In this document: positions 608-12,505 of the stretch, piece by piece
Layout of the letters: each line of letters starts with the position of its first letter
Position numbering within the stretch: the stretch's first letter is position 1
DNA from: a virus
Reading direction: 5' to 3' (one strand)
IMG/VR virus record: IMGVR_UViG_3300037011_000242
Coordinates: 1 to 20,838 of that record
DNA length: 20,838 nucleotides
Notes under the pieces: model-generated
Seen by the model: the letters and a program-made list of their open reading frames with translations, nothing else
Databases searched by the model: none
Told to the model about the DNA's origin: nothing
Position numbers and translations under genes: made by a program

Positions 608-2360
608 GCCGTGCTCGGTTGATCTGTACGCTCTCGACGTTTGGGAGGGCCGGATCGCCGCGTGCAAGTGGGTCCGGCTCGCGTGCTGGCGGCACCTGCA
701 CGATCGGACTCACGGTCCCGACCGCGGGTTGCGCTTCGACGCGGACACCGCGGATCGCGCGATCAGGTTCTTTTCGGAGTGCCTGGTCTTCTACGAAGGT
801 GAGTTCGACGGGAAGCCGTTCACTCTTCTTCCGTTCGAGGAGTTCATCGTCGGGAGCCTGTTCGGGTGGAAGACCGCGGACGAGTTCCGGCGGTTCCGCA
901 CCGCGTACGTCGAGATGGCGAAGGGGAACGGCAAGTCACCGCTCGCCGCGGGCATCGGGTTGTATGGTCTCATCGCGGACAAGGAGCCGGGTGCCGAGAT
1001 CTACTCGGCCGCGACCACGCGGGATCAGGCCTCGATCCTGTTCCGCGATGCCAAGGCCTTCGTGGAAGGGTCCGAGGCTCTCCTCCGGCGGTTGATCGTT
1101 GACAAGGGAAACATCGGCTACGCGGCGCAGAACAGTTTCTTCCGGCCGGTGTCTTCGGAGCACCGGGGGCTCGACGGGAAGCGGCCGCACATCGCGTTGA
1201 TCGACGAGATCCACGAACACCCCAGCGACATCGTGGTGAACAAGATGCGCGCCGGCACGAAGGGTCGCCGGCAAGCGCTCATCTTCGAGATCACGAACAG
1301 CGGATACGACCGGCACTCGGTTTGCTATCAGCATCACGAGTACACCGAGAAGATCCTCGAGGGCGTCGGCGTCGAGAACGGGATGGCGAACGACTCGTGG
1401 TTCGGGTACATGACCGGTCTCGACGTTTGCGAGAACCACGCCAACGAGGGGAAGTCGATCCCCGTGGACGATTGCCCCGACTGCGACTCCTGGAAGGACG
1501 AGTCGAAGTGGCTCAAGGCCAATCCGGGCCTCGACGTGATCATCCCGAGAAAGTATCTTCGAGAGCAGGTCGCCGAAGCGAGCGAGATGCCTTCGAAGGA
1601 GAACATCGTCAAGCGGTTGAACTTCTGCATCTGGACGGAGAGCGTCACCAAGTGGATGTCGCTCGACAGGTGGCGCGTCTGCGACGGCATCGCCGATCCG
1701 GAGGAACTCCGCGGCCGATCCTGCTACGGCGGTCTCGACCTGTCATCGGTCAACGACGTCACCGCGTGGATCAAGGTGTTTCCGCCCGAAGAGGAAGGCG
1801 AGAAGTACAAAGTTCTCTGCCGGTTCTTCCTTCCCGCGGACAACCTGCGGGAGCGCGTGCGGCGCGACAAGGTTCCCTACGACGTTTGGGTGCGGCAGGG
1901 CTTCATCACGACGACTCCGGGGAACATCATCGACTACGCCTTCATCCTGGCGGCTATCGAGCAGGACACGAAGGACTTCATGATCGTGGAGCTGGCGTTC
2001 GACCGGTGGGGATCGCAGAAGATCACGACGGATCTTCAGAACCTCGGCTTCGAGGTCGAGGGGAAGAAGAACCTGATCCAGTTCGGTCAGGGGTTCGCGT
2101 CGATGGCCGCACCGACCAAGGAACTGGAGAAGATGGTTCTCGCCGGTGAACTGGCTCACGGAGGAAACCCGGTGCTCGCGTGGATGGTCAGCAACACGGT
2201 CGTGCGCACCGACCCGGCGGGGAACATCAAGCCGGACAAGGAGAGAAGCACGGAGCGCATCGACGGCGTCGTGGGCCTCGTGATGGGGTTGTCGCGCGCG
2301 ATGCTGCGCGTAGACGATACCGACACGGTCTACTCGAGGCGCGGGGTGATCTCCGGGTGA
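597..2360 (+). CDS. terL: Terminase large subunit (packaging ATPase and nuclease)
   Basis: This is the motor ATPase and headful/cos nuclease that pumps DNA through the portal into the prohead. The 587-aa length is normal for Terminase_1-type (HK97-like) proteins. The ATPase domain has a Walker A-like AKGNGKS at residues 108-114 and a Walker B HIALIDEIHEH at about 198-208, followed by the coupling-type sequence FEITNSG near 230. The nuclease half starts at about residue 378 with GGLDLSSVNDVTA (acidic D381), has FDRWGS in the middle, and ends with ERIDGVVGLVMGL, which supplies the last conserved Asp. The start is GTG at 597 with GAGGAG at 584-589. An odd detail is a C-x-H...C-x-x-C pattern at residues 279-296 between the two domains, possibly a metal-binding insertion. 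It overlaps the next gene by 4 nt (GTGA). Confidence 0.96.
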   Translation: MDYEPCSVDLYALDVWEGRIAACKWVRLACWRHLHDRTHGPDRGLRFDADTADRAIRFFSECLVFYEGEFDGKPFTLLPFEEFIVGSLFGWKTADEFRRFRTAYVEMAKGNGKSPLAAGIGLYGLIADKEPGAEIYSAATTRDQASILFRDAKAFVEGSEALLRRLIVDKGNIGYAAQNSFFRPVSSEHRGLDGKRPHIALIDEIHEHPSDIVVNKMRAGTKGRRQALIFEITNSGYDRHSVCYQHHEYTEKILEGVGVENGMANDSWFGYMTGLDVCENHANEGKSIPVDDCPDCDSWKDESKWLKANPGLDVIIPRKYLREQVAEASEMPSKENIVKRLNFCIWTESVTKWMSLDRWRVCDGIADPEELRGRSCYGGLDLSSVNDVTAWIKVFPPEEEGEKYKVLCRFFLPADNLRERVRRDKVPYDVWVRQGFITTTPGNIIDYAFILAAIEQDTKDFMIVELAFDRWGSQKITTDLQNLGFEVEGKKNLIQFGQGFASMAAPTKELEKMVLAGELAHGGNPVLAWMVSNTVVRTDPAGNIKPDKERSTERIDGVVGLVMGLSRAMLRVDDTDTVYSRRGVISG

Positions 2361-2536
2361 AAGCGTTCATCTTGAAAGTCGCGTCGCACGTAGAGTTCTG
2401 CGACGTGTGCCTGTTCGGCGGCTTCGCGTTATTGGGGTATGGCCTGTGGCTGTATCTGCCGTGGCTTTCCTACGTCGTCTGTGGAGGCGTTCTTATGTCG
2501 ATCGGTCTTTTCATGGGACGGGGTAGCGGCACGTGA
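2357..2536 (+). CDS. Small two-helix membrane protein between terminase and portal
   Basis: This 59-aa protein starts at a GTG in a GTGA overlap with the large terminase stop and ends in another GTGA overlap with the portal start, so it appears to be translated by coupling. After a short N-terminal part (residues 1-15) it is almost wholly hydrophobic: one segment at about 19-36 (LFGGFALLGYGLWLYL) and a second at about 38-54 (LSYVVCGGVLMSIGLFMG), with a short Pro/Trp turn between them, predicting a helical hairpin in the membrane. There are two Cys at the start of the first helix (CDVC). Small membrane proteins at this position occur in other HK97-like phages, from memory, but no function is known to me. 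The tight overlaps on both sides are the main evidence that it is a real gene. Confidence 0.72.
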   Translation: MKAFILKVASHVEFCDVCLFGGFALLGYGLWLYLPWLSYVVCGGVLMSIGLFMGRGSGT

Positions 2537-3804
2537 GCATCGCGAGTCGGATCATGCGCCCGAAGTCGATGAGCCCCGATGAACTCTCTCGGTTGATCAC
2601 CTCGACATACGGCGGAGGCGCTACCGGGTCCGGCGTGTCCGTCACAACGCGCTCCGCGATGCGGGCGATGGCGGTTCACTCGTGCGTCACGATCAAGGCC
2701 AACGCCATCGCGCAACTCCCGTGTCACCTGATGCAGCGCGACGGGCGGAACAAGAAACAGGCAACCGACTTCTACCTGTACTCGCTCTTGCACGATCAAC
2801 CGAACGAGTGGATGACCGCTCCGGAGTTCTGGGGGATGGTCTCGGCGTGTCTCGATCTTCAGGGGAACTTCTTCGCGTTGAAGACCGGGTTGCCGGGGCG
2901 ACCGATCCGCGAGATCGTTCCGTGTGCTATCGGTTCCGTGGAGGAAGTGATCCAGACGCCGAACTACGGGCTGTGGTACAAGGTCCGTCGGCCCACGTCG
3001 GACTCGACGAACGACGGCACGATGAAGAACTCGTCCACCATCGTGGACACCATCCCAGGAAACCGGATCATGCACCTGCGCGGTCTCGTGCTGAACGGTT
3101 TCATGGGACTTAATCCGATCGCCTACGCGCGCGAGTCCATCGGCCTGGCTCTCTCGACGGAGAAGCACGCGGCGAAGTTGTTCTCCCACGGAACGCTGCT
3201 CGGCGGTCTCCTGAAGTGGGACAAGCACTTCAAGAGCGACGATGATGCGAAGCGTCTCATCGCGTCGTTCAACGAAGTTTATTCCTCGGTGGAGAACGCG
3301 CACAAGACGGCGCTCCTCGAGGACGGCGTCACCTGGGAGAAGATGCAGATGACCTCCGAGGATTCGCAGTTCATGGAGGCGCGGAACTTCCAGAAGAAAG
3401 AGATCGTCGATTTGTTTTTCGGGATGCCGTTGTCGATGCTGCAGAGCGGCGACAAGGTGGCGACGTACGCGAGCGCGGAACAGTTCGCGCTCCAGTTCGT
3501 GACGTACACGTTGATGCCGCGGCTGGTGAACATCGAACGCGGGGTGAGTCGCGATTGCCTGACGTCGGAGGAGAAGAAGATCTACTACCCGAAGTTTTCC
3601 GCCGAAGGATTGCTCCGCGGGGATTCGGCCGCGCGGGCAACGTGGTATCGGGAGATGATCAACGCCGAGGTGATCTGTCCCAACGAGGCGCGGGAGAAGG
3701 AAGACTACAACCCCTACGACGGTGGCGACGAGTTCAGGACTCGCACGAGTTCGGTCAAGCAGCCCGAGAGCGCGCCGCCTCCGAAAGAAGGAGCGCCGAA
3801 ATGA
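2533..3804 (+). CDS. Portal protein, HK97 type
   Basis: This 423-aa protein is expected to form the dodecameric ring at one head vertex through which DNA enters and leaves and to which the connector and tail attach. The sequence follows the HK97-like portal family: an early AVHSCVTIKANAIAQLP helix near residue 50, the LLHDQPNEWMTAPEFW segment near 90, LRGLVLNGFMGLNPIAYAR near 185, and GMPLSMLQSGDKVATYAS at about 297-314. The C-terminal part (LRGDSAARATWYREMI, then CPNEAREKEDYNPYDGGDEF) is also typical of the family. The start is GTG at 2533, overlapping the small membrane protein gene by 4 nt. It ends in an ATGA overlap with the protease gene. Length and order (terminase, portal, protease, capsid) are standard. 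Confidence 0.95.
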   Translation: MSIASRIMRPKSMSPDELSRLITSTYGGGATGSGVSVTTRSAMRAMAVHSCVTIKANAIAQLPCHLMQRDGRNKKQATDFYLYSLLHDQPNEWMTAPEFWGMVSACLDLQGNFFALKTGLPGRPIREIVPCAIGSVEEVIQTPNYGLWYKVRRPTSDSTNDGTMKNSSTIVDTIPGNRIMHLRGLVLNGFMGLNPIAYARESIGLALSTEKHAAKLFSHGTLLGGLLKWDKHFKSDDDAKRLIASFNEVYSSVENAHKTALLEDGVTWEKMQMTSEDSQFMEARNFQKKEIVDLFFGMPLSMLQSGDKVATYASAEQFALQFVTYTLMPRLVNIERGVSRDCLTSEEKKIYYPKFSAEGLLRGDSAARATWYREMINAEVICPNEAREKEDYNPYDGGDEFRTRTSSVKQPESAPPPKEGAPK

Positions 3805-4703
3805 TCGACGATCAGAAAAACTTACAGGGGGCAGGGATGATACAGAATCATCGCAACGGGAAGAACGCGGAAGCGGTGGCGCGCTTCTGGGGCAAGTCCC
3901 TGGACAAGCCGGACTGGTACTCGGTGAAGGGGCTGACGGAGGACGAGGGCGAGGTGATGATCTACGACATCATCGGGTGGCCGTACAACGACGCCACCGA
4001 ACTCGTGCGCGCGATCCGCGGCTTCACCGGGAAGTCGCTTCTCGTGCGGATTAACTCTCCCGGTGGTGACGTGTTCGACGGGACGGCGATCTTCAACGCG
4101 CTGGCGAACCACTCCGCGAAGGTCACGACTCGCGTGGAAGGGGTCGCCGCGTCGATGGCGTCGGTGCTGGCGATGGCCGGCAAGGAAGTGCAGGCATACT
4201 CCAACACGATGATGATGATCCACGACCCGTGGGTCATCGCGATGGGCAATCAATACGACCTGCGCGAGATCGCGGACCTGCTGGAGAAGATCGGCGGGAA
4301 CCTCATGGACATCTACACGGGCAAGACGAAGACCGGGAAGAAGGAAATGAAGCAGATGATGGCCGACGAGACGTGGATGACGGCCAAGGAAGCGGAGGAG
4401 AAGGGATTCGTCGACACCGTGCTCACGTCCGGCAAGGCGGCGAAGGCCCAGTTTGACCTGTCGATGTACGCGAACGCTCCGGATGGTTTCTCCGGGGTGA
4501 AGACAGGGCGTGACCTGACGGAACGCGAGATCGAACGTGCCCTGCGGGACGCAGGCGCGAGTCGAAACTTCGCGCGCGCCGTCGCTGTGGGACGCAGCGA
4601 CGGCGACTCTGGAGATCAGCGGGACGCTGAAAACCAGAGGCTGCAGCACGTGGACGGCATCCGGGCGGAACTGACTCGAATCATATCAAAGGTGAGGAGG
4701 TAA
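3801..4703 (+). CDS. Prohead maturation protease, ClpP-like serine protease
   Basis: This 300-aa protein should cleave the scaffold (delta) part of the capsid protein and itself inside the prohead. It has the ClpP fold signature: INSPGGDVFDG at residues 84-94 (oxyanion region), the nucleophile Ser118 in GVAASMASVLAMAG, His141 in MMMIHDPW, and a likely third catalytic residue Asp189 in ADETWMTAKEAEEKGFVD. A C-terminal stretch, LTEREIERALRDAGASRNFA (239-258), is common in phage members of the family. The ATG at 3801 overlaps the portal stop (ATGA) and has AAGGAG at 3788-3793, 7 nt upstream; an alternative ATG at 3837 would remove 12 residues. The capsid gene follows after 5 nt, as expected for protease and substrate. 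Confidence 0.94.
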   Translation: MIDDQKNLQGAGMIQNHRNGKNAEAVARFWGKSLDKPDWYSVKGLTEDEGEVMIYDIIGWPYNDATELVRAIRGFTGKSLLVRINSPGGDVFDGTAIFNALANHSAKVTTRVEGVAASMASVLAMAGKEVQAYSNTMMMIHDPWVIAMGNQYDLREIADLLEKIGGNLMDIYTGKTKTGKKEMKQMMADETWMTAKEAEEKGFVDTVLTSGKAAKAQFDLSMYANAPDGFSGVKTGRDLTEREIERALRDAGASRNFARAVAVGRSDGDSGDQRDAENQRLQHVDGIRAELTRIISKVRR

Positions 4704-4708
4704 CGGAA

Positions 4709-5944
4709 ATGGAAGGACTCAAGCAGTTGATCGAGGACCTCGGGCGCGCGTTCGAGGAGTTCAGGGGAGAGAACGACCGGCGGATCAAGGCTATCGAAGC
4801 CAAGGGCAGCGTGGACCCGTTGCTCACGGAGAAGGTGGAGAAGATCAACGCGGAGATGGGCACGATGGTCGCCACGAAGAAAAACTTCGAGGCGATGAAG
4901 GCGCAGTTGGAGGCCATCGAGACCGCGGTCGCGCGGGCCGAGTTCCCCGGCGGTGGCAGGACGGAGAAAAACCCCGACAAGGCGGCGCACGCCAAGGCGT
5001 TCGATCGCTGGTTCCGCAAGGGCGTCTCCGACGGCCTGATGGATCTGCAAATCAAGGCCTCCGCGTCAACGCTCTCCGACCCGGATGGTGGCTTCACCGT
5101 TCCGGAGGAAGTGGATTCGGCCATCGACCGCGTCGCGCAGACCATGTCCGCGATGCGCCGGCTCTGCACGGTCCGGTCGATCTCGACCGACACGTACAAG
5201 AAGCTCGTCAACCAGGGCGGAGCCTCCAGCGGGTGGGTCGCGGAGAAGGCGTCGCGCGCCGAGACCAACACGCCGACCCTGGCGGAGATCGCCATCAACA
5301 CGAAGGAGATCTACGCACAGCCGGCAGCCACGCAGACCCTGCTCGACGACAGCGCCATCGACATCGGCGGGTGGTTGGCCGACGAGGTGGGGATCGAGTT
5401 CAACGAGCAGGAAGGCGACTCGTTCATCCACGGGAACGGCGTCGAGAAGCCCAAGGGCATCGCCGGATACACGATGATCGCGAACTCCGGTTACTCCTGG
5501 GGCAAGGTCGGCTTCACCGTCTCGGGGCACGCGACGCTCCTCAACAACGCCGACAAGTTGATCGACCTGCAGCACTCGCTGAAGGCGATCTACCGCGGGA
5601 GTTCGGCGTGGCTCATGAACGACATCACCTTCTCCGTCCTCCGCAAGTTCAAGGATGGCGAGGGGAACTACCTCTGGAGGCCGGGTCTCCAGGAGGGGCA
5701 GTCGGACACGCTGCTCGGCAAGCCGGTCGAGATCGACGACAACGTGGACGACATCGGTGCGGGGAAGTTCCCCGTCTTCTTCGCCAACTTCAAGCGGGCA
5801 TACCTGATCATCGACCGCCTCGGCACGCGCGTTCTGCGCGACCCGTACACCAGCAAGCCGTTCGTTCTGTTCTACACGACCAAGCGGGTTGGTGGCGGGA
5901 TCGTGATGTACGAAGCGATCAAGGCTCTCAAGATCTCGGCGTAA
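4709..5944 (+). CDS. Major capsid protein, HK97 fold with N-terminal delta domain
   Basis: This is the main shell protein of the head. The 411-aa product starts with a charged, helical, coiled-coil-like region (residues 1 to about 75), matching the delta/scaffold domain that is removed by the maturation protease. A Gly/Pro-rich linker (EFPGGGRTEKNPDKA, about 78-92) follows. The mature part shows the Phage_capsid family pattern: SDPDGGFTVPEEV at 123-135, GWVAEKASRAETNTPTL near 175-191, EFNEQEGDSFIHGNGVEKPKG near 231-251, and an ALKISA end. No separate scaffold gene is seen, consistent with a fused scaffold. The ATG at 4709 is preceded by a near-perfect SD (AGGAGG at 4695-4700). The exact cleavage site cannot be told from sequence alone; somewhere around residues 75-120 is likely. 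Confidence 0.95.
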   Translation: MEGLKQLIEDLGRAFEEFRGENDRRIKAIEAKGSVDPLLTEKVEKINAEMGTMVATKKNFEAMKAQLEAIETAVARAEFPGGGRTEKNPDKAAHAKAFDRWFRKGVSDGLMDLQIKASASTLSDPDGGFTVPEEVDSAIDRVAQTMSAMRRLCTVRSISTDTYKKLVNQGGASSGWVAEKASRAETNTPTLAEIAINTKEIYAQPAATQTLLDDSAIDIGGWLADEVGIEFNEQEGDSFIHGNGVEKPKGIAGYTMIANSGYSWGKVGFTVSGHATLLNNADKLIDLQHSLKAIYRGSSAWLMNDITFSVLRKFKDGEGNYLWRPGLQEGQSDTLLGKPVEIDDNVDDIGAGKFPVFFANFKRAYLIIDRLGTRVLRDPYTSKPFVLFYTTKRVGGGIVMYEAIKALKISA

Positions 5945-8278: not shown

Positions 8279-8604
8279 TGCGCATCGGTCCGATGGACAA
8301 GCGGATCGAACTCCAGGCGTTCACGGCCGTCTCGGACGGGATGGGCGGTTCTACGAAGACGTGGACTACCGAGGACACGACGTGGGCTGCGATCTGGCCG
8401 GTCTCCGCGAGCGAGACCATCCGCGCGCAATCACCGACGATGACGGCGACGCATCGCATCCAGATGCGGTATCGCGAGGAACTGCAGGTGAAGGCGTCGT
8501 GGCGCGTCAAGTACGGTGCACGGTATTTTTCCATCGTGAGCATCATCAACAAGGATGAGAAGAACATTCAACTCGACCTGCTTTGCCGCGAGGTCGTTCA
8601 GTGA
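8278..8604 (+). CDS. Head closure / head-tail joining protein
   Basis: This 108-aa protein fits the phage head-tail joining family (SPP1 gp16-like), which closes the neck after DNA packaging and is the docking site for the tail. Typical features are the start IGPMDKRIELQAFTAVSDGM, G-G-S-x-K-T-W-T next, the WAAIWPVSASE motif near residues 37-47, THRIQMRYREEL near 60-71 and a final strand set ending in LLCREV. The ATG at 8278 overlaps the previous stop (TAATG) and has GGGGAG at 8265-8270, 7 nt upstream; an earlier in-frame start at 8263 would lack this. It overlaps the next gene in GTGA. Length and order after the connector agree with the family. Confidence 0.88.
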   Translation: MRIGPMDKRIELQAFTAVSDGMGGSTKTWTTEDTTWAAIWPVSASETIRAQSPTMTATHRIQMRYREELQVKASWRVKYGARYFSIVSIINKDEKNIQLDLLCREVVQ

Positions 8605-9011
8605 AAAACTTGACGACGGCGATCTTCTCGAAGGCGACGGGCAGCGCGTTCTTGACCGGTATCGGTGGCCGGCTCTACAAGAACCGCGCCGATCAAGACG
8701 CGGCCTGGCCGTACGCGGTGTTCTTCGTCGTGGATGACACTCCTCGCCTGACGTTCAAGGACACCATCGAAGAAGTCCTCGTGCAGTTTTCGATCTTCTC
8801 GCAGGCATCGAGCAGCGCGGAGATCGAGGACCTGTTCACGAACCTGAAGGCGCTCTACGACAACGCGGAGTTGACGATCGTCGGCAACACCTTCTTGATG
8901 ATGAATCGCGCGGGCGCGAGTCTCGTGACGGTTCCCGCCGACACGGAGACTGGCGAGGGCGAGTACTGGCAATATGATGTTGACTACAACGTGACGATGC
9001 AGAAAACTTGA
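8601..9011 (+). CDS. Tail terminator / tail completion protein, DUF3168-like
   Basis: The 136-aa product resembles the DUF3168 (SPP1 gp17-like) tail completion family, which caps the tail tube and joins it to the head. Supporting features are the short N-terminal helix, AAWPYAVFFVVDD near residues 35-47 where the family has a P-[YH] motif, VLVQFSIFSQASSSAEIEDL near 58-77, and a C-terminal QYDVDYNVTM strand typical of this fold. The GTG at 8601 overlaps the head-closure stop (GTGA) and has GAGG at 8590-8593. After this gene the expected next step would be the tail tube gene, but a three-gene cassette with enzymatic functions intervenes. Family identity is from pattern and synteny. Confidence 0.78.
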   Translation: MKNLTTAIFSKATGSAFLTGIGGRLYKNRADQDAAWPYAVFFVVDDTPRLTFKDTIEEVLVQFSIFSQASSSAEIEDLFTNLKALYDNAELTIVGNTFLMMNRAGASLVTVPADTETGEGEYWQYDVDYNVTMQKT

Positions 9012-9015
9012 TGGC

Positions 9016-10233
9016 ATGAATATCCTGTCGTACCTGCTGGTGCGGGAGTTCGTCGAAGACTGCGGCCTTCGCGAAGGGAACCTCGTCATCGACGTCGGCT
9101 CCTACGACGTGAACGGAACGTACAAGGGTCTGTTCGCCCCGCCGAAGTTCATCGGGGACAAGCGGTACGTCGGCGCGGACATCCGGCCGGGACCGAACGT
9201 GGACGTGATCGTCGGCTCCCCGGAGTGGTACGCGCTGCGGGGCGCGGACGTGGTCATCTCCGGCAGCACGTTTGAACACGTCGAGGACGACAAGCGGTTG
9301 ATGGCGCAGATTTACGACATCCTGAAGCCGGAGGGATTGCTCTGCGTGCAGGTGCCGTCGGATGGACCGCCGCACGATTATCCGTCGTGGTATCGTAACT
9401 ACTCGAAGAAGGCGTTGACGGCGCTCGCTCGTGGCGCGGGATTCGAAGTCCTGTCCTGCAGGATTCACCCGCACCCGGAGTTCAAGTTCAACACCTGCAT
9501 CGCACGAAAACCAAAGGGAGGGGACATGGCGAAGAAGACGGGATTGCCGCAGGACGCAGCGGAGTTCGGCGAGGAACTTACGCTCGCGGTGACGGACGCG
9601 CCCGCACCGGAGGCGGGGTCGAGATCGGTGGAGGAGATCGAGAGGCATATCGAGGAAATCGGCTCCGACGATCTTCCGACATTCGGCGGAACGTGGCAGG
9701 GGGGCGCGTACATTCAGCAACTCCCCGACGAGCTCGCGCCGTGCATCCACGCGCTGCTCGCGTCCGGCGTTCCGATCAAGTCGTACTTTGAACTCGGCGT
9801 GGCGGCGGGCGGGCTGACGCTGCTGATCGACCACTACTTCAAGCCGGAGACGATCGTGCTGCTCGACACGAATCAGCATCCGCGCTGCGTGAACCGCCCG
9901 GACGTGCTGAAGGGGATCAAGTACGAGGAGGTCATCGGGGAGTCGGCGGGCGATTCGACGCTCGCTCGCGTGGCGAACCTCGGCTATTCCTACGACCTCG
10001 TCGTGATCGACGGCGTTCACTACTACGAGAACGTGAAGAAGGACGTTGCGATGTATGCGGGCTTCCTGCGCAACGGCGGCTTCCTCATGCTGCACGACTC
10101 CGCGCTGCACAACTGGGGAGTCCCTCGCGTGGTCGCAGAACTGAAGAACGATCCGGCGTGGGAGTTCATCGGCGAATGGGCGTCCACGAAGATGTCGCCG
10201 TGCGGGGTCGCGCTGTTCCAGAGAATCACATGA
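9016..10233 (+). CDS. Two-domain SAM-dependent methyltransferase fusion
   Basis: This 405-aa protein contains two class I methyltransferase-like domains. Domain 1 (about residues 1-168) has motif I VIDVGSYDVNGTYKG at 24-38, an acidic residue after the next strand (YVGADIRPG, D55), and the STFEHVEDDK...ILKPEGLLCVQVPS region (84-115) of small-molecule or sugar methyltransferases. Domain 2 (about 221-405) has FELGVAAGG at 258-266, VLLDTN at 281-286, DLVVIDGVHYYENVKKDV at 327-344 and LRNGGFLMLHD at 351-361, like the Methyltransf_24 or cephalosporin-hydroxylase-like group. The linker holds an internal SD and ATG at 9526. The start codon has no clear SD; coupling with the upstream gene is likely. 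Substrates are unknown. With the neighbouring glycosyltransferase it may modify sugars on virion or host. Confidence 0.82.
   Translation: MNILSYLLVREFVEDCGLREGNLVIDVGSYDVNGTYKGLFAPPKFIGDKRYVGADIRPGPNVDVIVGSPEWYALRGADVVISGSTFEHVEDDKRLMAQIYDILKPEGLLCVQVPSDGPPHDYPSWYRNYSKKALTALARGAGFEVLSCRIHPHPEFKFNTCIARKPKGGDMAKKTGLPQDAAEFGEELTLAVTDAPAPEAGSRSVEEIERHIEEIGSDDLPTFGGTWQGGAYIQQLPDELAPCIHALLASGVPIKSYFELGVAAGGLTLLIDHYFKPETIVLLDTNQHPRCVNRPDVLKGIKYEEVIGESAGDSTLARVANLGYSYDLVVIDGVHYYENVKKDVAMYAGFLRNGGFLMLHDSALHNWGVPRVVAELKNDPAWEFIGEWASTKMSPCGVALFQRIT
9516..9528 (+). promoter_or_regulatory. Internal Shine-Dalgarno and ATG within the methyltransferase fusion
   Basis: GGGAGGGG at 9516-9523 is followed by ATG at 9526, in frame as Met171, exactly at the junction between domain 1 and the linker to domain 2. 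It is a better translation signal than the one at the gene's own start. It could yield a separate 235-residue form containing only domain 2 (9526-10233), or be the remains of an ancestral gene boundary. Confidence 0.5.
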
Positions 10234-10487
10234 GCGGACCCGCGACGGGGCAGTCGAAAATATGTTCCGACATCTGCGACGCCCTCGGGCTGAAGCGTTG
10301 CCGGAGGCTTGAACTGGTGATGGCGGTGAACAACGTCGTGACCGTGAAGGCGGAGTTCTTCGTCGAGACGGATGCGATGGAGAAGATCGCCGTCGCCCTC
10401 AAGGAATACCATCTGGTCGAGAACGAGCCGCCGCCCGCGCCCGCCACTGGCGAACGCGACGCGCCGCCGGAGGAGGGGGAACTGTGA
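10230..10487 (+). CDS. Unknown 85-aa protein in the methyltransferase/glycosyltransferase cassette
   Basis: The ATG at 10230 overlaps the methyltransferase stop (ATGA) and the stop at 10485-10487 overlaps the glycosyltransferase start (GTGA), so all three appear translationally linked. The first 65 residues are compact: a short helix with two Cys (KICSDICDALGL), a strand pair (LELVMAVNNVVTVKAEFFVE, about 28-47) and a helix (DAMEKIAVALKEYHLVE), an alpha-beta-beta-alpha arrangement. The last 20 residues are Pro, Ala, Glu-rich and probably disordered; their codons also carry the SD of the glycosyltransferase. I do not recognise a family with confidence; similar short phage proteins exist but without known function. 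The context would allow a partner of one of the flanking enzymes. Confidence 0.66.
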   Translation: MSGPATGQSKICSDICDALGLKRCRRLELVMAVNNVVTVKAEFFVETDAMEKIAVALKEYHLVENEPPPAPATGERDAPPEEGEL

Positions 10488-11239
10488 AGTTCTCCTTCGG
10501 GGCGCTCGTGAACGATCACATCCGGCTGGACATGTGCCTGCGCCGATCGGAACTGGACCCGGACATTCCCGTCCGGTGCCACTACAACCCGATCTCTGCG
10601 GTGGACGGGTATAACAAGATCCTTGACGTCATCGAGCAGGACGGATCGGACGTTGCGGTCCTCGTCCATCAGGACATGTACTTCCGCAACGGATGGCTCG
10701 CGCAGGTGGAGGGGCAACTCGCGCTCCTGCCGGAGTCGTGGATTGTCGCGGGCATCGTAGGGAAGTGCATGGAGGGGAAGATATGCGGGAAGTTCCACGA
10801 CATGCGCATACCGCTGATCTTCAACACGGAGGGGCATCACACGTTCCCGCAGCCCGCGTCGTGCTTCGACGAGTGCGTGATACTCGTCAACATGAAAAAG
10901 AAGTTTCGCTTCGACACGGGACTCACCGGGTTCGACCTGTACGGGACGATGGCGGCCTGTCAGGCGTGGGAGATGGGCGGCACCGCGTGGATCATCGACG
11001 CCTACGCCGAGCACTACTGCATGAGGCCCTTCAACTGGTTCCCCGACAAGAACTTCGAGGCGATGTTCAAGTGGCTGCACGAACGCTTCCCGAACGCACC
11101 GAGGATCGACACGACCGTGCTCGGCGTACCTGAGAAACCCGGACCCGCACGGTATGACAAGACGGCGGAGGCACTGCACGACCTGATTGAAGCGGCGGAG
11201 GAAGAAGCGAAGACGCACGCGGAGAACGTCGGCTCCTAA
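10484..11239 (+). CDS. Glycosyltransferase, family 2-like (GT-A)
   Basis: This 251-aa protein resembles the short GT-A enzymes of the Glyco_tranf_2_5 (StrF-like) kind. Seen: an N-terminal beta-alpha unit (KFSFGALVNDH); YNKILD at 43-48; VLVHQDMYFRNGWL at 59-72, where the HQD (62-64) takes the place of the metal-binding DxD region; VAGIVGKCMEG near 88-98; CFDECVILVN at 127-136 with an acidic pair; FDTGLTGFDLYG at 143-154; and an IIDAYAEHY stretch at 170-178 with the His common at the end of such catalytic cores. A charged Glu/Ala-rich C-terminal helix follows. The GTG at 10484 is preceded by a very strong SD (AGGAGG at 10471-10476). Donor and acceptor sugars are unknown. No membrane segment is seen, so it likely acts in the cytoplasm on virion proteins or sugar precursors. 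Confidence 0.78.
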   Translation: MKFSFGALVNDHIRLDMCLRRSELDPDIPVRCHYNPISAVDGYNKILDVIEQDGSDVAVLVHQDMYFRNGWLAQVEGQLALLPESWIVAGIVGKCMEGKICGKFHDMRIPLIFNTEGHHTFPQPASCFDECVILVNMKKKFRFDTGLTGFDLYGTMAACQAWEMGGTAWIIDAYAEHYCMRPFNWFPDKNFEAMFKWLHERFPNAPRIDTTVLGVPEKPGPARYDKTAEALHDLIEAAEEEAKTHAENVGS

Positions 11240-11274: not shown

Positions 11275-11691
11275 ATGGCATCTATCGGTGGAAGACTGGC
11301 GAAGGTGATGTACGGCAGCGTCGTGATCGCGGGGATCGGGACGTGGAGCATGAGCGGTTTCATCCCCGACGTCGCGGAGGACACGGCGTTCGGCGACACC
11401 GTCAAGAAGTGGAAGCGGGCGGGTATCGACGATGCCGGTTCGGTTTCCTTCGAGGGGATGTACGACCCGGCGGACACGAACGGGCAGGTCGCGCTGAACG
11501 CTCTCGCCACGAACACGGCGGGCCTCACGAACCTGTATTTCTACGAGTCGACCTCCGTGTTCTGGCGGGTCGCCTCGGGCGGAGAGATCGTCCTCGACAA
11601 GTTCAACGTCGTCGGCTTCTCGAAGTCCGGCCTCGCGACCGTGTCGTTCTCCGGCAAGGTGTCCGCGAAGCAGATGGAGCGCGTGTCGTAA
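11275..11691 (+). CDS. Major tail tube protein (probable)
   Basis: A 138-aa protein with a very strong SD (AAGGAGG at 11261-11267) and a tail-tube position, just before the chaperone pair and tape measure. Visible features are an N-terminal strand (KVMYGSVVIAGIGTWSMSGF, about 9-28), an acidic/aromatic loop with EDTAFGDTVKKWKRAG near 35-50, DAGSVSFEGMYDPADTNGQ (about 53-71), a NLYFYESTSVFWRV strand pair near 86-99, and a final GFSKSGLATVSFSGKVS strand set. This alternation of strands with a central helix (QVALNALAT) fits the tail-tube fold. The assignment rests mainly on gene order and the fold pattern; no sheath-like gene lies beside it, so the tail should be non-contractile. It is a reasonable candidate target for the upstream modifying enzymes. 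Confidence 0.75.
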   Translation: MASIGGRLAKVMYGSVVIAGIGTWSMSGFIPDVAEDTAFGDTVKKWKRAGIDDAGSVSFEGMYDPADTNGQVALNALATNTAGLTNLYFYESTSVFWRVASGGEIVLDKFNVVGFSKSGLATVSFSGKVSAKQMERVS

Positions 11692-11720: not shown

Positions 11721-12179
11721 ATGCGGTTTGATCTGTCGAACGAGGCGCAGGGGGAGTGGTTCTCGTTTTTCGGTTCCGAGATCAAGGAGAACGGCGAGGT
11801 TCGGTACCTTGACCCGGAGGAAGGCGCGGGGAAGATATGCCTGCGCATCGCGGACCCGGAGGTGATCGAGAAAATCCAAGCGCAGACCCGGAAGAAATCC
11901 GCCGAGTTCGCGCTCAATCCGAGGACGCGACAGATGGAGCGCGTTTCCTTCTACGAGCAGACGCCGACGCAGGAGAAGAAGGAACGAGAACTGATCTGGG
12001 ATCACGCGATCGTGGACTGGAAGGACATCCTCGACCGTGAAGGCGAGCAGATCCCCTGCACGTTGGATAATAAACTGAAACTCATGAACAATCCGCAGTT
12101 CGCACGGTTCGTCGGTCGCTGCCTGCAACTCATCACGGGCGCGAACGCACAGACCTCGGAGGCGGAAGGAAAAAACTGA
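11721..12179 (+). CDS. Tail assembly chaperone, gpG-like (unshifted product)
   Basis: The 152-aa zero-frame product occupies the place of lambda gpG between tail tube and tape measure. Gene G-type proteins coat the tape measure and recruit tube subunits during tail assembly. Seen: RFDLSNEAQGEWFSFFGSEI at the start, a beta-like N-terminal half with ICLRIADPEVIEKI (39-52), and a helical C-terminal half with LIWDHAIVDWKDIL (91-104) and NNPQFARFVGRCLQLI (about 123-138). The end is polar (AEGKN). The stop TGA at 12177-12179 directly follows the slippery heptamer at 12170-12176. The ATG at 11721 has AGGGGG at 11708-11713; the ATG at 11714 is out of frame. Identity rests on synteny and the frameshift signal more than on sequence motifs. 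Confidence 0.8.
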   Translation: MRFDLSNEAQGEWFSFFGSEIKENGEVRYLDPEEGAGKICLRIADPEVIEKIQAQTRKKSAEFALNPRTRQMERVSFYEQTPTQEKKERELIWDHAIVDWKDILDREGEQIPCTLDNKLKLMNNPQFARFVGRCLQLITGANAQTSEAEGKN

Positions 12180-12505
12180 TTGGCTGGATAGAGTGGGTGG
12201 AGGTGTACCTTCCCACCTGTCCAGCCTGTCAGGACATCTACCTGCGCAGGGACCCTCCTGCGCTGCCGCCGTGCGACGCCTGCCGTGTCGAACTGATGCC
12301 GGAGAACAACGACGCCGCGCAGGTCTACCATCTCGTGAAGAGACAGGTCCGGGTCGCACCGGGGTCGGGCATCATCATCGATCTCGACTACGCTGCGGTG
12401 AAAGCGGTCATGGACATCTACGGAGTAGGGGACAAGCGCGATTGCTTTGATAAGGTCGCGCGGGCGTTCCATCACACCTTGAGCGAACGGCAGAAGCGGG
12501 AGTGA
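11721..12505 (+). CDS. Tail assembly chaperone, gpGT-like -1 frameshift product
   Basis: A -1 slip at A AAA AAC (12170-12176) joins 11721-12176 to 12176-12505 and gives a 261-residue fusion: 152 residues of gpG and 109 of the T part. The T part begins LIGWIEWVEVYLP, carries a C-x-x-C...C-x-x-C pattern (Cys 167, 170, 185, 188 of the fusion) and then the LMPENNDAAQVYHLVKRQVR and DLDYAAVKAVMDIYGV segments, resembling the small proteins (DUF1799-like) that precede tape measures in several siphoviruses. In lambda the GT form is made in a minority of translations and its T part contacts the tube protein; the same is inferred here. The T reading frame has a GTG at 12197 but no good SD, so frameshifting is its most likely route of expression. 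Confidence 0.83.
12170..12226 (+). promoter_or_regulatory. Programmed -1 ribosomal frameshift signal (slippery site plus stem-loop)
   Basis: The heptamer A AAA AAC (12170-12176) is phased with the gpG frame as GGA AAA AAC TGA. Five nt after it, GGCTGGA (12182-12188) pairs with TCCAGCC (12220-12226), 7 bp without mismatch. Inside, GGTGG (12196-12200) can pair with CCACC (12213-12217), and AGG (12201-12203) with CCT (12208-12210), making a longer interrupted hairpin. After a -1 slip the ribosome reads through to 12505. Confidence 0.88.

Follow-up and report, generated by a model that had tools for sequence, protein, structure and literature searches.

A glycosyltransferase gene that moves with the tail tube gene suggests variably sugar-coated tails in uncultivated long-tailed viruses

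Why do three genes with no evident part in assembly lie between two tail genes of a phage? The window, which is the whole stretch of DNA that was analysed, is an entire IMG/VR record of 20,838 b and probably a fragment of a phage genome. Its gene order is that of an HK97-like long-tailed phage, and all of its genes described here are on the plus strand. A tail terminator gene (8601-9011; PF11367, E 6e-8; phrog_176, E 3e-11) and the gene of the major tail protein, the tail tube (11275-11691; phrog_158, E 9e-5; phrog_10528, E 6e-4), border a slot with three overlapping ORFs. ORF1 (9016-10233) codes for 405 amino acids with two methyltransferase domains. It overlaps by ATGA with the gene of a small protein of 85 amino acids (10230-10487), which overlaps by GTGA with a gene for a protein of 251 amino acids (10484-11239), named here the core glycosyltransferase (GT). 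The ORF coordinates agree with the genes and overlaps listed in an earlier note on this DNA. The tail assembly chaperone gene (11721-12179; phrog_313, E 2e-5) forms the downstream border. A slippery A AAA AAC (12170-12176) is in frame at its end, just before the stop at 12177, and a -1 shift leads directly into the DUF1799 frame (12197-12505), a classical G/GT-type tail chaperone frameshift.

The position amid tail genes had already struck the earlier note as unusual. The family matches of terminator and tube confirm it, together with Paenibacillus phage Tadhana, an isolate with a related head-closure gene. Only 1 base separates the annotated genes of terminator and major tail protein in Tadhana; this phage served, by annotation only, as the control for a plain arrangement. 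Pseudomonas phage D14E was dropped as an empty-site control, as its tail genes were not homologous by profile. Homologous genes fill the same terminator-tube slot in dozens of independent contigs, which excludes chance for the gene arrangement.

The core GT had no Pfam or PHROG match, and 31 relatives likewise had no PHROG match. A phmmer search of the PDB retrieved majastridin (E 9e-6). The AlphaFold model, calculated from 32 sequences (pLDDT 89.1, pTM 0.86), had its best Foldseek match in the majastridin-UDP complex 2qgi (E 6e-15; Z 24.2, rmsd 2.5 over 210 residues). Polypeptide GalNAc-transferases were the next-best folds, with Z about 14. The HQD motif of the core GT aligns with HED of 2qgi and DEC with DEC, and the final His is also aligned. 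These shared motifs are nearly all invariant across the 32 diverse sequences, in which H62 and D64 (HQD motif), H105, D106, D129, E130, D151 and H177 do not vary. By its predicted structure, the core GT is a GT-A fold glycosyltransferase with conserved catalytic-type residues, and we infer that it is active. Structure prediction and the PDB sequence match both support the class that the earlier note had assigned to this third protein.

The enzyme is tied to the tube gene. When IMG/VR was searched by the tube sequence alone, the core GT was directly upstream of the tube on the same strand in 69 of 69 loci (52 distinct groups; median gap 88 b), a set of relatives that comes from pattern scans favouring conserved members and from uncultivated contigs, many of them fragments. 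With tube- and GT-seeded searches pooled, the tube was present in 65 of 66 groups with a core GT. The single group without it, L091, has the genes of this region on both strands. A mirror-tree set without the chaperone was insufficient to part linkage from coupling, and the chaperone was added as a control. Among core-GT loci, the correlation of pairwise identities is 0.55 between GT and tube (0.44-0.63 in subsamples) and 0.28 between tube and chaperone (0.17-0.38), though the latter are equally close neighbours. The core GT is thus a core gene of the lineage and the fixed partner of the tube. A NUMOD3-type, homing endonuclease-like gene lies between core GT and tube in L010 (3002-3787). The near-identical L013 has only a short ORF at this site, which indicates a recent insertion or loss.

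The slot can also hold another enzyme. As the aligned terminators varied too much for scanning a collection, single terminator sequences were used as queries. Two loci that lack the core GT, L128 and L130, came from this search. They have a more distant tube subtype and, directly before it in the same slot, an Anp1-like GT with a DxDQ motif. A search with the Anp1-like GT yielded 43 loci, with the tube directly downstream in 42 and the terminator upstream in 42. None of the 43 has a core GT, and no core-GT group has an Anp1-like enzyme.

A complete gene set was available for 73 loci (44 core-GT and 29 Anp1-type). Both types were compared on trees of these loci, each locus carrying the type of its last GT as a label. 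In these quick maximum-likelihood trees of about 140 columns, the label needs a single change for the tube (SH-aLRT 94), but 14 changes for the chaperone, 13 for the terminator and 15 for the head-closure protein Hc1; the mean of shuffled labels is 23. The AU test rejects one clade of the 29 Anp1-type loci for chaperone (p 1e-39), terminator (p 9e-13) and head closure (p 4e-6). Tube and last GT were therefore exchanged as a pair amid frequent recombination, beyond what closeness explains.

The tube subtypes differ in single residues. Tyr88 is present in 62/62 tubes of one subtype and is replaced by Arg in 39/41 of the other, which has a Ser aligned to window tube position 95 in 40/41. A conserved acceptor motif was not evident in the tubes; the type-specific invariant residues are candidates. 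Some loci carry duplicated tail genes: a tandem pair of tube genes behind an Anp1-like GT in L153 (6635-7502), and two terminator copies in L085 (2752-3108 and 6715-7116) and L154 (439-837 and 924-1322).

Upstream of the constant GT, the slot is variable. The distance from terminator to tube ranges from 714 to 5,102 b. Two types of Methyltransf_24 gene and other methyltransferases are among the upstream modules. Three further domains, named from the sequence outside Pfam matches, are GT-A-like (a second one, with a DDDD motif), GT-B-like and DUF115-like. The module of L004/L090 comprises two hexapeptide acyltransferases, a methyltransferase, a family 2 glycosyltransferase and a sugar dehydrogenase. 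None of 65 groups combines a GT-B-like with a Methyltransf_24 module (Fisher p 4e-6). Mapped on a tree of 51 tubes, the class of the upstream module requires 19 or more changes (shuffled mean 26.8). In L020 (6012-7979; same contig as L056, 6693-8657), one frame of 655 amino acids comprises terminator, GT-B-like domain and core GT, like a fusion. The view of the earlier note that the three genes of the window are inherited as one unit is ruled out: the GT stays with the tube in all 69 loci, while methyltransferase and small-protein genes occur in some relatives only, come and go, and move.

ORF1 is an example of this mobility. Its N-terminal half (about residues 20-150) matches the methyltransferase families PF13489 and PF08241 (Methyltransf_23/11) above the Pfam cut-offs, with 36.6 bits versus 27 and 31.7 versus 21.2. 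Joined to it in frame, the C-terminal half (about residues 200-403) is a Methyltransf_24/CmcI-like methyltransferase (PF13578, 33.3 bits versus a cut-off of 26.3). Rhamnosyl O-methyltransferase/CmcI (RMNT_CmcI) is matched by nine slot proteins at E 0.001 or better, by the ORF1 of the window only at E 0.006. Both halves are separate genes in L048, the closest relative. In L048 and L052 the first methyltransferase has a gene of its own, located between head closure and terminator, and in L101 it forms a fusion with the core GT; its joint to the second methyltransferase occurs only in the window, among the loci seen. This joint falls between two homologous domains, where GGGAGGGG and an in-frame ATG (9516-9528, with the ATG at 9526-9528) are kept as a candidate internal start of the second methyltransferase. 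As read from the sequence, the large ORF1 is probably two joined methyltransferase genes, with an internal start at 9526. Since ribosome-binding site and ATG are kept, two proteins may still arise from it. The two methyltransferase domains described in the earlier note are real, but their status as a single gene does not extend to L048.

The small protein had no match to a Pfam or PHROG family. Its relatives, seen in 12 of 65 locus groups, do not keep to one place: they lie between head closure and terminator, between terminator and methyltransferase, or between methyltransferase and GT. The AlphaFold model (pLDDT 69.5) predicts an alpha-beta-beta-alpha arrangement, too weak for a fold search.

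We consider it likely that the last slot gene codes for a soluble GT dedicated to the neighbouring tube protein, that upstream genes extend or methylate the sugar and that the slot is a virion-glycosylation module. The tube is matched by an enzyme of a glycosylating class from two families, which makes it the simplest target. The GT-A enzyme would be synthesised in the cytoplasm alongside the tube and would attach the first sugar to the tube monomer from a nucleotide-activated donor. Proteins encoded upstream, in the window the two methyltransferase domains, would act on this sugar next, by extension or methylation. In relatives, this role may fall to second glycosyltransferases, acyltransferases and a sugar dehydrogenase. 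A constant enzyme that must recognise the tube would evolve and move with it. The variable part would set the outer chemistry, and its frequent swaps fit a glycan under changing selection, for instance for escape from recognition. Together this points to a coat of sugars of changing kind on the tail tube of these uncultivated long-tailed viruses. Shielding from host recognition as the purpose would fit the frequent exchange. Tail tube glycosylation had been named as a plausible purpose in the earlier note and is now favoured by the GT type tracking the tube tree. Of the targets proposed with it, the trees, which covered tube, chaperone, terminator and head closure, single out the tube; nothing linked the GT to decoration or fibre-like proteins.

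Other explanations have to account for the same pairing. The enzymes might modify host surface glycans, with exclusion of other phages or a change in adsorption as the result, and sit in the tail operon by chance. Phage glycosyltransferases for serotype conversion exist as gtr clusters, and such cargo can sit anywhere. The GT type follows the tube and not the neighbouring genes, however, and the hallmarks of gtr clusters, a membrane flippase GtrA and a membrane-anchored GtrB, are found neither in the window proteins nor in the Pfam tally of the slot: the three proteins of the window have no stretch with a mean hydropathy >=1.6 and hence no likely membrane span, and no GtrA/GtrB-like gene is among the 79 slot proteins tallied. 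This role, which the earlier note had offered as its alternative, is disfavoured, with neither a membrane-spanning stretch nor a flippase or lipid-carrier gene seen, and we regard it as unlikely. Modification of another virion protein (capsid, decoration or fibre), with a merely positional link to the tube, has a precedent in podoviruses, in which a related Anp1-like GT gene follows the major capsid gene; the capsid can thus be the partner elsewhere. The coupling observed here, among the four genes put on trees, is specifically to the tube gene, and such a target appears improbable for this slot. An Anp1-like GT gene is located just after the major capsid gene in MW202711 and MW202496 (Manatee Spring) and in Microcystis phage Mel-JY34, where its position in the sequence suggests capsid glycosylation.

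The constancy of the pair could have simpler causes. GT and tube might be exchanged together as neutral hitchhikers, only for want of recombination in a short gap, and the median gap of about 90-100 b is indeed short. Tube and chaperone are even closer (median 67 b), yet were separated about 14 times, and the GT-tube pair is intact even where inserted genes widen its gap to as much as 945 b. Hitchhiking is accordingly a poor candidate. The GT-fold protein could also be a tail assembly factor or a structural part without catalysis, as it is as constant as a structural gene (69/69). This is very improbable: 32 diverse sequences all keep the catalytic-type residues unchanged, the slot is taken by a GT of another family with the other tube subtype, and the fused partners of the core GT are enzymes. 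Dedicated glycosylation of the tube remains the preferred reading. It could be taken further, to an obligate tube glycosylation throughout the lineage by a co-inherited GT, with the cassette swapped like a serotype locus. The intracellular sensor DSR2 is triggered by the phage tail tube protein (PMC11263360, PMC10981675), and the glycan may hide tube monomers from sensors of this kind. We regard this extension as tentative and rather doubtful.

The lineage appears to lack isolates. A collection of 50,697 phage records contained no match to tube, terminator or chaperone, nor to the core GT (tblastn, E 0.01), so that no isolate of the lineage was found. At that threshold no sequence relationship of the core GT to the known virion GTs Che8 gp110 and Corndog gp38 was seen, though a distant one may exist. 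One contig, L007, is from a Methanoperedens bin. The bin does not establish an archaeal host, as the remaining ORFs listed for the contig resemble those of a phage (terminase, portal, protease, capsid and recombination genes); a search of 294 other genomes from the phylum of this bin gave no match.

Few phages are known to glycosylate their virions, and what governs this is unclear. With dozens of variants, two enzyme families and a clear predicted substrate, a constant tube-specific enzyme combined with a swappable module would amount to a natural experiment. If true, it would make directly testable what purpose tail glycosylation serves in nature, where antibodies are absent. It would also offer small soluble glycosyltransferases with a defined protein acceptor.

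Among known proteins, majastridin (2nxv, 2qgi), encoded by ORF 6 of the ATP synthase operon of Rhodobacter blasticus, is the closest in structure. It has the same GT-A fold (Z 24.2, 20% identity), HED and DEC motifs corresponding to HQD and DEC, and UDP bound in 2qgi. Unlike the core GT, it is a bacterial protein without a link to phage tails, and a search found no paper on its acceptor. The polypeptide N-acetylgalactosaminyltransferases share the GT-A fold (Z about 14) and glycosylate proteins, but are eukaryotic, have an extra lectin domain and about 11% identity. The Anp1-like phage glycosyltransferases share the slot position; they belong to another sequence family, have the DxDQ motif and precede another tube subtype. 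An obligate GT-tube pairing in a fixed slot with swappable modules was not described in the literature searched. Capsid and tail tube subunits are glycosylated by virion GTs in the mycobacteriophages Che8, Corndog and Myrna, according to Freeman 2023 as cited in PMC12619734 and PMC12363180. The phage of the window resembles them in its phage-encoded GTs; glycans on capsid and tail tube were seen there, while here the genes are the evidence. As expected of a virion glycosylation system, the pairing with the tube couples a phage-encoded GT to the gene of a virion protein.
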